From contig CAJONZ010000072.1 of assembly GCA_905236065.1 (NCBI GenBank), positions 1 to 39,521 of the forward strand: 39,521 nt of DNA, read 5' to 3'. Source of the DNA: an uncultured Bacteroidaceae bacterium (GTDB taxonomy: Bacteria; Bacteroidota; Bacteroidia; Bacteroidales; Bacteroidaceae). Shown one piece after another: positions 9,966-39,521 of this stretch. The position numbers and the translations under genes are program-made. Below the pieces are notes generated by a model. That model ran no database searches, was not told the DNA's origin, and worked only from the letters and a program-made list of their open reading frames with translations. Positions within the stretch are counted from its first letter, which is position 1. Each line of letters opens with the position of its first letter.

Positions 9966-10043
9966 ACGCTGAACTCTTTCGGAGATGACGCAGTACTCTA
10001 TTCAACTCAACGCAGAACTCTTTTCGTGAATAGAGTACTGCGT
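9966..10043 (+). repeat. 78-bp palindromic element, copy A
   Basis: The element has four 11-bp cores: ACGCTGAACTC (9966), ACGCAGTACTC (9988), ACGCAGAACTC (10010) and the inverted GAGTACTGCGT (10033). The forward cores repeat every 22 bp, and a 12-bp spacer separates the third core from the inverted one. A perfect 17-bp inverted repeat (9987-10003 with 10028-10044) can form a large hairpin. A weak fifth core (GAGTTCGGTGG, 10055) keeps the 22-bp period. Copies B (18890-18967) and C (39303-39380) share length and order. The surrounding 9687-10321 stretch holds no convincing gene. Confidence 0.9.
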
Positions 10044-10265
10044 CGTTTTGGAATGAGTTCGGTGGCTTTCAAGAAGCAGGGGGGCACAAATGAGACACAT
10101 TATTATATATATACAAAAAAAGAAAGTGGGAATCGCCTGATTTCTTAGGTGTTTTGCCTGTAATGTTGCCATTGGGAACACGTTTGTGGAAATTTAGGAC
10201 ACAGGGGTTATAAAAAAATGTACTTTTATCGGAAAAAACCAAAAGATTTTGCGTAAAAAGTTTTT

Positions 10266-18831: not shown

Positions 18832-18889
18832 GCCCTCTCCGGCTCACGGTATTCTCCTTTTACAAGCGGATTGAACTGCTTCCGATTTC

Positions 18890-18967
18890 ACGCAGAACTC
18901 TTCTCGTCAGTAGAGTTCTGCGTGAAATCGAATAGAGTACTGCGTCATCTCCGATAGAGTTCTGCGT
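18890..18967 (-). repeat. 78-bp palindromic element, copy B (reverse orientation)
   Basis: Read on the minus strand, this copy has the same order as copies A and C. On the plus strand the cores are ACGCAGAACTC (18890) and inverted cores at 18913, 18935 and 18957, the last three exactly 22 bp apart. Here the innermost pair (18890-18900 with 18913-18923) is perfectly complementary. It begins 59 bp after aroB. Confidence 0.9.
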
Positions 18968-19003: not shown

Positions 19004-19085
19004 AAAAATTGTCCCGCAGAAATGGCAGAAATGGCAGAAAAGACTTCGCATGGCGAAGCCCTCCCTTAGCTCCTTGGCTCCGTAG
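19004..19085 (+). repeat. 82-bp inverted repeat, left arm
   Basis: This arm matches the reverse complement of 19799-19880 at 77 of 82 positions by hand alignment; the five differences cluster in the first half. It contains a small hairpin (CTTCGC-ATG-GCGAAG). The region 18968-19301 has no credible gene and is made of such repeat modules. Confidence 0.85.
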
Positions 19086-19199: not shown

Positions 19200-19297
19200 G
19201 GACTTCGCATGGCGAAGTGAAAAATTTCTTTTATTTCTTTCATTTCTGCGGGACTTTAAAAAAATGTCACACTGAAAGCACAGATATACACAGAAAT
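19200..19297 (+). repeat. Direct repeat module (hairpin, CATTTCTGCGGGAC, CACAGAAAGCACAGA)
   Basis: The same three motifs occur in the same order and orientation at about 19827-19916: the CTTCGC/GCGAAG hairpin, CATTTCTGCGGGAC, and a CACACTGAAAGCACAGATA-like segment. The two blocks therefore form a direct repeat superimposed on the inverted one. Confidence 0.7.
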
Positions 19298-20053: not shown

Positions 20054-21244
20054 TTAGAACCCGAGAACAGGTCTTACCTTGTATTGAGTCGTCTTATCCC
20101 TGGCGCCCCAGTAGTTAGAGTATGAGAAGCGCCAAGCGTTGGTATCATTATATCCGGTTGAAGACCAGTTTTCGCCAGAGATGGCCGTGCCGCCTGCACC
20201 GGTGATATAGGCATTCACGTTGTCATCGTAGGTTTTTCCATCACTATCAGATCTTGTCGAGCCGAGGTTCGTGAATATCGCCGTGTAGTCGGCCCTCGTC
20301 GCTACAGCCCAGTTGGAGACGGTGGTGCTTCCAAGCGTGGTGTAGCTGGGCAGGTTGCTGCCGCGGGCATCATCGTCGGGCAACACTTTCAGTGTGGTGC
20401 CGGCGTAGTTGGTCTCGGATGCCCAGCCATTGATGGTAGCCCATACCTGCTTCGGTGCGTCCTCCAGTGACATAATCAGGCCATGGCCAGTCTCCGTCAC
20501 CTTGCCCACAATGCCCACGACGGTCGTCACCTTGTTTGCCTGAGCGGCGGTGGCATACACGTTTCCGTCGGCGCCGATGACATTGCCCACATGCTCGCTC
20601 GTCACTTCTGACAGTGCGCAGAGCGAAATGCGCGTCACCGTCACGCTGGCCGGGGCGAAGAGGCTGTTGGTCACGCTGCACGTGCCCTCCTTGTAGCCGA
20701 GGAAGCCGCCGAATGCGTTGCCGCTGCCATCGTTTTTGCCTGCTGCCGGCAGGAAGACGCAGCCCTCGGCCTCCAGCGTGGTTCACTGCGAGGTGCTGAT
20801 GGTGTTCGTCGTGTAGTTGGCGGTAGTCACCGTGAGGCTCACGCTGCCAGCCGTCCAGCCGTCGGGCATCAGGATGAGGCCCTTCACGTCGCAGACCGTG
20901 GCCTTGGTGCGCAGACTACTACTGCTGCGTCCGAGCAGATACGTCCACTCGTCCTTGGTCAGTACCGACCAGCCCGTGGTGCCGCCGACGGAAATGCTGC
21001 TGTTGGCCGACTGCCAGTTGAACAAGTCCTTGTTATCGTCGGCCTGGCTCGCGCCGATGTAGTCGTACTGATTCGTGGCGAAACTGTAGGTGCTGCCGTT
21101 GTACTTCAGGTTGCCCTGCGAGAACACCACCTTCTTCACGGCGCTGACGGAGAACTGGCCGTTCATGGCCCCGTTCGTCCACGCCCATGCGCCCTGCGCT
21201 ATTGTCAGCAGGGTGGCAAAGATGAATAGTAGTTTCTTTTTCAT
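20054..21244 (-). pseudogene. Secreted FISUMP/C-type-lectin-like surface protein, interrupted by one TGA
   Basis: A single reading frame of 396 codons runs from ATG 21244 to TAA 20054, broken only by TGA at 20785-20783 (codon 154). The N-terminus is a signal peptide (MKKKLLFIFATLLTIAQGAWA). The body has the Bacteroidetes surface pattern FSQGNLKY, TGWSVLTKDEWTYLLG, LILMPDGW, then, after the stop, VFLPAAG, and ends WSSTGYNDTNAW and VRPVLGF, as in FISUMP/DUF1566 proteins with a formylglycine-enzyme-like or lectin-like fold. In relatives the interrupted position is often a tryptophan before VFLPAAG, so TGG to TGA is the likely change. It may be a decayed gene, a phase of variation or a sequencing error. 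Confidence 0.8.
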
Positions 21245-21318
21245 TTGCAATTTGTTTTTTAAAGGGTTAATAAGATAATGATTAAAATAAGCTTGTAGGA
21301 ATCTTTGTAGCTGGGTAC

Positions 21319-21540
21319 AAAAAACAATCAGGCTTCCCTTGCCCGAAAGCAAAGAAAGCCGTATCTTGGCGCGGGTGCCCGCGCCTCTTCATTCGCACGT
21401 AGTTTAGAGAATAATAGTGAGTGAGTGAGTGTTCAAATTATCGAGACCGTCAAACAATCGGGCAACAATCTGCTGCCCGTTAACATAGTTTACGGCATGT
21501 CCGTTTTGGTGGTGCATTATTATCTCTTATACAAAAACGG
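21319..21540 (-). ncRNA. Candidate structured RNA or long leader upstream of the secreted protein
   Basis: On the minus strand a promoter-like TACCTTTG (21551-21544) is followed by about 215 nt without a credible reading frame. The stretch contains a CGGGCA/TGCCCG hairpin (21459-21479), a GGCGCGGG/CCCGCGCC hairpin (21368-21385), possible long-range pairing of AGAG-AATAAT with ATTATT-CTCT, and a 12-bp stem at 21331-21360 followed by a T-run (TTGTTTTTT). The terminator lies 75 nt before the start of the secreted protein gene, so this is either an independent small RNA or an attenuating leader. No match to tmRNA, RNase P, SRP or 6S RNA is evident. Confidence 0.5.
21331..21360 (-). terminator. 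Terminator or attenuator hairpin
   Basis: Twelve base pairs (two of them G-U) form between GGCTTTCTTTGC and GCAAGGGAAGCC on the minus strand. A short gap and TTGTTTTTT follow (plus-strand 21319-21330). Confidence 0.65.
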
Positions 21541-39229: not shown

Positions 39230-39302
39230 TATCCTCTTTTACAGTTTGTTACAATCCAAGCATTTTAACTTTTAACTCTTAACTTTTAACTTTCCAAAAA
39301 TG

Positions 39303-39380
39303 ACGCAGTACTCTATCGGAGACGACGCAGAACTCTATTCGATTTCACGCAGTACTCTATTCACGAAAAGAGTTCTGCGT
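39303..39380 (+). repeat. 78-bp palindromic element, copy C
   Basis: The cores are ACGCAGTACTC (39303), ACGCAGAACTC (39325), ACGCAGTACTC (39347) and the inverted GAGTTCTGCGT (39370). The spacers TATCGGAGACG and TATTCGATTTC also recur in copy B. It starts 74 bp after mtaB, behind a T-rich spacer. The rest of the window end (39381-39521) shows no convincing gene. Confidence 0.9.
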
Positions 39381-39521
39381 CACATTTGAAAAACTTCGGT
39401 GCCAACATCAAACGAGTTCGTTCGTCTTGCAGAATATGACTATCCGCAAAGATACCACCAACAAGACCGCAGCGCGGTCACCGCTCCGTAACCGAGGGTA
39501 CGAGCGTAGCGAGCACCCCCG

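Follow-up and report, generated by a model that had tools for sequence, protein, structure and literature searches.

A dispersed intergenic element with cores two helix turns apart in a Bacteroidaceae genome, and arrays of similar period in its relatives

Direct repeats about two DNA turns apart, which a protein reads on one face, are found in plasmid iteron arrays and in multi-site transposon ends. Among the cases found in print, the nearest described relative of the element reported here is, as far as its accessible text goes, the BrickBuilt MITE of Porphyromonas gingivalis. According to that text, BrickBuilt has 19 scattered intergenic copies built of a 23-nt repeat that is imperfect, one half being conserved and the other less so; P. 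gingivalis alone gave BLASTn matches, homologues occur in P. gulae, and segments of the element have promoter activity (PMC4596501), another possible role for the arrays described below. Repeats of the heptamer TAACTGA are described, in the accessible part of the report, from Beggiatoaceae, cyanobacteria and five Bacteroidetes (PMC4679880).

We analysed a stretch of 39,521 nucleotides (the window), which is contig C72 of an uncultured Bacteroidaceae bacterium; the genome searched comprised 2.73 Mb and was 88% complete. The original prediction, made from the window alone, had placed three copies of a 78-bp element in it, and re-reading the window confirmed their coordinates, strands and order of units. 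Each copy consists of three forward 11-bp cores (F1 to F3) at 22-bp steps, a 12-bp interval and one inverted core (R1). The copies and the positions of a second inverted unit (R2) are as follows.

9966 to 10043, plus strand: element copy 1, with F1 (ACGCTGAACTC), F2, F3, the 12-bp interval and R1; flanked by divergent genes
10055 to 10065, plus strand: R2 of copy 1, a degenerate inverted unit with 3 mismatches, on the 22-bp grid
18890 to 18967, minus strand: element copy 2, reversed, 58 bp past a gene end
18868 to 18878, minus strand: R2 position of copy 2, weak, with 6 mismatches
39293 to 39302, plus strand: left edge motif of copy 3 (CCAAAAATG), placed from the sequence and the column profile of the family
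39303 to 39380, plus strand: element copy 3, 73 bp past an MtaB-like gene
39392 to 39402, plus strand: R2 position of copy 3, weak, with 5 mismatches

Eleven of the 12 cores in the window are exact, the deviant one being F1 of copy 1 (ACGCTGAACTC). The spacers, predicted to be shared, are so in part; those of copy 1 depart from the other copies and read TTTCGGAGATG and TATTCAACTCA. A palindromic sequence, GACTTCGCATGGCGAAG, is repeated near copy 2 (19042-19058 and 19201-19217), with similar sequences beside some other elements, and is likely a third repeat family. A tandem of the heptamer TTTTAAC was seen at 39263-39293, and two adjoining minus-strand frames at 20054-21352 are apparent pieces of one gene.

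Exact matches to the core ACGCAGWACTC numbered 281 genome-wide versus 2 for the reversed control pattern, and the hairpin pattern, a forward followed by an inverted core (F-R), occurred in 55 places versus 0 for its control, indicating that the element is not due to chance. At 3.42 exact cores per element, the 281 cores correspond to an estimated total of ~82 elements; together with the period kept in relatives, this contradicts the possibility that only three copies exist and that the period is not conserved. Among the matches listed, the F-R interval was 12 bp in 50/50 places, though 9-14 bp was allowed. We took 59 distinct elements among the matches listed, the criterion being an F-R pair at a distance of 23 bp and with ≤3 mismatches, so that this distance is set by the selection itself. 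With ≤3 mismatches, F2 stood on the grid in 59/59 elements and F1 in 57/59. In sampled loci, the distances of ≤120 bp between neighbouring exact cores were on the 22-bp grid in 137/137 cases: same-strand cores were 22 bp (81) or 44 bp (4) apart and F-to-R cores 23 bp (47) or 45 bp (5) apart, and R-to-F neighbours within 120 bp numbered 0.

No two of the 59 sequences were identical, the median pairwise difference being 13 of 78 positions. The column profile of these elements revealed cores that were near-invariant except for the central W and, in F1, the fifth base (A/T), and spacers that were less constant; deviating cells made up 2.3% of the core bases without W compared with 19.7% of the spacers and interval. 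The left edge of the element lay ~10 bp ahead of F1, which was directly preceded by AAAAAT in 18/59 elements, and on the right side there were traces of a second and a third inverted unit, with SAGTTCAGCGT kept at +22. The second inverted unit was decayed (≤3 mismatches in 14/59 elements, exact in 5). Thus, of the fifth, inverted core that had been ascribed to all copies, a family-wide trace on the grid was recovered, but in the window itself R2 carries 3, 6 and 5 mismatches. Likewise, the noted alternation of T and A at the central base was seen in the window, where neighbours differ in 8/9 pairs, but not in the family, where 76/176 neighbouring pairs differ and 82/177 are expected if the bases are independent; the alternation is a feature of the window and no family rule. 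REP palindromes bear a GTAG or CGTC tag at one end; here GTAG was present within 30/59 elements, for example at the interval, and CTGCGTC at R1 in 30/59, and neither was constant. A CRISPR, which has unique spacers and had been doubted from the start, was rejected, as the spacers between the cores are shared among dispersed copies.

Since BrickBuilt has been proposed to be a MITE moved by a DDE transposase, the present element might be another, with its outer units as terminal inverted repeats. The 78-bp unit is constant and its flanks are mostly unrelated, although some of the 59 loci share longer flanks as subfamilies; its outermost cores are inverted, and its left edge is ~10 bp before F1. 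The accessible description of BrickBuilt, in which each 23-nt repeat has one conserved and one variable half and the ends are IS5-like (PMC4596501), fits this explanation as well. However, no clear signal of a target site duplication was obtained from the 59 elements, whose true edges are uncertain: the best of 1014 combinations of length and offset gave 10/59, compared with 4.6 expected. A full-length parent element was not found either, as the flanks of the 59 loci had only short stretches in common, none of them gene-sized within 1.4 kb, and the loci shared no match longer than 365 bp within 1.4 kb to either side. We regard a MITE of this kind as rather unlikely.

The copies had been noted to lie between genes, and this held throughout the genome, where 58/59 elements overlapped no gene call of a heuristic gene caller (≤25 bp overlap tolerated); the remaining one overlaps an ORF called by the same heuristic, on the side of its start. 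The sites were codirectional in 21 cases, convergent in 13 and divergent in 13, with 11 at contig or locus edges and 1 on the ORF start. Distances from the elements to gene 3' ends were shorter than those to gene starts (medians 78 bp versus 217 bp, n = 47 each, p 2e-9, as compared without a random-placement null). This placement would suit a 3' UTR hairpin that protects or terminates transcripts. F3 and R1 are pairable at most positions, which are positions that hardly vary in the 59 elements, and in the 30/59 elements that were folded the F3/R1 hairpin was strong, with a mean z of -4.8 on one strand and -4.4 on the other; a run of TTTT followed R1 within 12 nt in 13/59 elements, and past F1 on the opposite strand such a run was present in 28/59. 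On the other hand, the element strand ignores the gene strand, being the same in 11 codirectional sites and opposite in 10, and the hairpin is without a T-run behind it in 46/59 elements. No covariation was seen between the central W positions of F3 and R1 (paired in 36/59 elements, shuffle mean 35.2, p 0.52), and at 4/5 of the inner positions of the interval pairing was less frequent than in shuffled elements. The constant 22-bp step has no reason in RNA, and an Rfam search of the window gave 0 matches at the gathering score. An RNA-level role is thus very unlikely, and it is possible that a minority of copies serve as intrinsic terminators. Since W does not covary and strand is ignored, the element is considered to act at the level of DNA rather than RNA; the strength of the F3/R1 hairpin makes a role in single-stranded DNA or RNA possible.

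The spacing in relatives was examined without presetting any core, by scanning for three units that share a 10-base core, with ≤1 mismatch between neighbours, at any period of 15-60 bp. The scan is strict and counts 1 of the 3 window copies. Arrays with a shorter tandem unit (<15 bp, including heptamer runs) and arrays overlapping ORFs of ≥130 aa by ≥30% were dropped before counting. Heptamer runs other than that of the window were seen in congeners, for example ATTCCTA, CTCTTCA and AGAGGTT, and were excluded from the array counts. In the window and 31 congeners (1.96 Mb), 30 non-coding arrays were detected, 24 of which had a period of 21-23 bp (6 at 21 bp, 7 at 22 bp and 11 at 23 bp); periods of 15, 16, 24, 25, 44 and 50 bp occurred once each. 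We also scanned 80 loci surrounding relatives of MtaB, whose titles are mostly Bacteroidaceae/Prevotellaceae, with one MAG titled Roseburia; two of them (L300 and L301) may coincide with contigs of congeners G028 and G020. These loci contained 33 arrays, of which 20 had a period of 21-23 bp (18 at exactly 22 bp, 21 and 23 bp one each), nine had 15 bp, and 30, 31, 33 and 36 bp occurred once each. The nine 15-bp arrays look like missed coding repeats. When ORF-overlapping arrays were kept, the period was 21-23 bp in 40/59 arrays of the congeners and 28/51 of the 80 loci. Hosts of 22-bp arrays include records of Bacteroides nordii, B. stercorirosoris, B. luti, B. propionicigenes and Phocaeicola oris; in the last, a culturable species, locus L350 has such an array with 7 units. 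Block-shuffled congener sequence gave 0 arrays, as did E. coli K-12 (5 x 50 kb), which is modest evidence because, at the density of the family, the non-coding part of this control should contain ~3 arrays; 0 arrays in 65 kb from other families of the order came from a sample too small to be informative.

These results support the significance ascribed to the 22-bp period, and it was the period, not the core, that proved to be conserved in relatives, drifting between 21 and 25 bp among species. In arrays with ≥4 units (n = 26), the best 11-base window was 92% conserved and the rest 72%, a contrast that is partly due to ascertainment. A dyad at p < 0.05 was present in 17/45 unit consensuses, with ~2 expected (3 of 46 arrays excluded; the commonest base taken at variable positions), which suggests that many units, though not all, could bind a dimer; the source species' own core had no significant dyad. 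None of the 39 re-examined arrays of period 21-23 overlapped a gene call, partly as an effect of the prior ORF filter. The preference for 3' ends was weaker in relatives than in the source genome (medians 232 bp to 3' ends and 314 bp to 5' ends, p 0.03), and of the 32 arrays with both neighbours 21 were codirectional, 8 convergent and 3 divergent. In G004, two stretches that are paralogous, in L140 (from 382) and L143 (from 5585), have ATCTGTCAT sites in both directions, partly at 10-bp steps, and adjoin 22-bp arrays. The units in relatives resemble diverged tandem copies, as expected of a minisatellite that arises by replication slippage, has no function and owes its two-turn period to a mutational quirk. 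Yet the scan covered periods of 15-60 bp and mostly 21-23 bp turned up, entire 78-bp units are dispersed in the source genome, and cores vary less than spacers, all of which leave slippage only a slim probability.

The core itself was searched for separately. ACGCAGWACTC occurred 0-8 times per genome in 36 other congeners and 24 other-family genomes, and the control 0-6 times. Pairs of CAGWACTC at 22 bp numbered 120 in the source genome and were found once each in 2/44 congeners. In 398 other family genomes, this octamer at 22-bp spacing gave 66 matches in 18 genomes, with a maximum of 24 in one, compared with 20 matches in 9 genomes for the reversed octamer. The matches were mostly in G225 (24), G311 (14), G133 (7) and G185 (4), where the remainder of the unit differs; these genomes belong to other genera of the family and have 22-bp arrays whose unit differs but contains the octamer CAGTACTC. 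The core pair pattern gave 0 matches in viral_contigs, and the T/T pair pattern 0 in genome_contigs, a search of one W variant only from which records near the own genome were perhaps omitted. Judged by sequence matches in the congener, other-family and 399-genome searches, the full core is species-restricted within the genomes searched, whereas the octamer is not. Arrays of congeners have other cores, which differ between species or small clades: pairs of CTCCTTGC at 22 bp numbered 64 in G029 and were absent from the other 44 genomes, and pairs of AACTGTGC numbered 30 in G004, 6 in G063 and 0 in the other 43. Some congeners have common cores (G004 and G063; by eye also G016 and G025, and G008 and G062). 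The nearest species have ~80% protein identity in MtaB.

The original prediction had offered a REP/BIME-type element, a small non-autonomous element or a phased binding array; the dispersed element and the importance of the period hold, and the RAYT partner does not. For a REP or REPIN mobilised by this genome's Y1 (RAYT-like) transposase, it may be argued that there is one Y1_Tnp match in the genome (E 5e-21), the product of which resembles subclass 1.2 in the accessible text of PMC6006769 by the motif YIIHQKEHH, and that an array lies ~0.9 kb away. The immediate flanks of the gene, however, are a different hairpin repeat, which occurs in 19 genomic places. In favour of a link, this repeat is found ≤320 bp from 7/59 elements, one of them with a second at 838 bp; 4 of those 7 elements have homologous flanks in common. 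Among 45 genomes, a Y1 match at E ≤ 1e-3 was obtained in 20 and a match above the cut-off in 14. The scan of 25 Y1 loci detected a 22-bp array in three (own, G004 and G029), at ~0.5 kb (G004) and ~0.2 kb (G029) from the Y1 gene and of the local kind, as well as a 21-bp array in G019 and a 24-bp array in G036. Against this, other hairpin repeats were in the immediate flanks of the 4 Y1 loci examined in part (own, G004, G029 and G065), intergenic space is crowded by both kinds of repeat, and no Y1 match was found in 9/18 sampled genomes with 21-25 bp arrays, which are drafts, 3 of the 9 being ≥90% complete. A plain RAYT-REP pair was thus rejected, and RAYT as the defining partner was not supported. 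With half of the sampled array-bearing genomes giving no Y1 match, we read the proximity of arrays and Y1 as crowding or shared mobility, yet mobilisation by RAYT stays alive as an improbable alternative. The same flanking repeat, GACCGCAGCGCGGTC plus GGTACGAGCGTAGCGAGCACC, forms a second repeat family at the right end of the window (39455-39521); 6 of its 19 places are ≤60 bp from a contig end, which may explain why this contig stops here. In L217 (G029), a Y1-type gene at ~900-2110 has several near-perfect hairpins, GGATAATCAAGGGGTCTGACCCCTTGATTATCC, in frame and flanks.

Many dispersed copies, rigid spacing and intergenic placement characterise the element, and the spacing is kept in relatives while the cores differ. 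The best explanation, to which we give a probability of about 0.5, is that the element represents, in this species, a class of intergenic repeats that is widespread in Bacteroidaceae/Prevotellaceae and works at the DNA level as a two-turn-phased array. The class has a core motif every two turns of the helix (21-23 bp), with inverted units sometimes present. The cores would be the sites at which a sequence-specific DNA-binding protein attaches; by sitting on one face of the helix, this protein may constrain the spacing. The unit would spread as a non-autonomous element and survive mainly near gene 3' ends, and its core may change fast because the protein, or the transposase of a mobile element, and its sites change together. 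A binding array is consistent with the grid distances (137/137), the period of 21-23 bp in both congeners and the 80 loci and the 0 arrays in controls, although copying alone would likewise hold the lengths constant. More tentatively, and with somewhat less confidence than the phased array itself, we propose that this is an unrecognised array class of Bacteroidaceae and relatives, in which a putative family of DNA-binding proteins (or transposases) reads two-turn sites on one face, the ruler being conserved and the site sequences species- or clade-specific. No description of a family-wide 22-bp class was found in a literature search that mostly excluded subscription papers. If true, a conserved ruler with species- or clade-specific sites implies fast coevolution of protein and DNA. 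Short intergenic repeats are usually described species by species on the basis of their sequence, whereas here the spacing stays and the sequence changes, and this in many species of a group that is abundant in gut and rumen. The two-turn ruler is also a concrete handle for finding the protein that reads it.

Comparison with known systems places the element as follows. Like the TAACTGA heptamers, it consists of short direct repeats that are intergenic and present at many loci; as far as the accessible report describes them, the heptamers differ in their 7-bp unit, in having one sequence across lineages and, in the main genome, in lying mostly immediately upstream of start codons (PMC4679880). 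REP, BIME and REPIN sequences with RAYT are, in the accessible texts, also short, intergenic, palindromic, species-specific and present in high copy number and in both orientations (PMC3733652, PMC6006769). Compared with the REP and REPIN described there, the present element shows no consistent tag at the hairpin foot and no dependence on a Y1 gene, and has a fixed two-turn spacing (PMC3733652, PMC6006769). It is set apart from iterons and transposon ends by its dozens of chromosomal loci and by the absence of an attached replication or transposase gene. BrickBuilt resembles it in belonging to Bacteroidales, in being intergenic and scattered, and in its repeat of about two turns with a conserved half; the accessible text describes repeats that run head-to-tail without spacers, 1 to 22.8 in number, between a leader and a tail with IS5-like ends, and mentions neither an inverted core within the array nor a family-wide class (PMC4596501). 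One mechanism may unite BrickBuilt and the unnamed repeats of the Bacteroidaceae/Prevotellaceae group.
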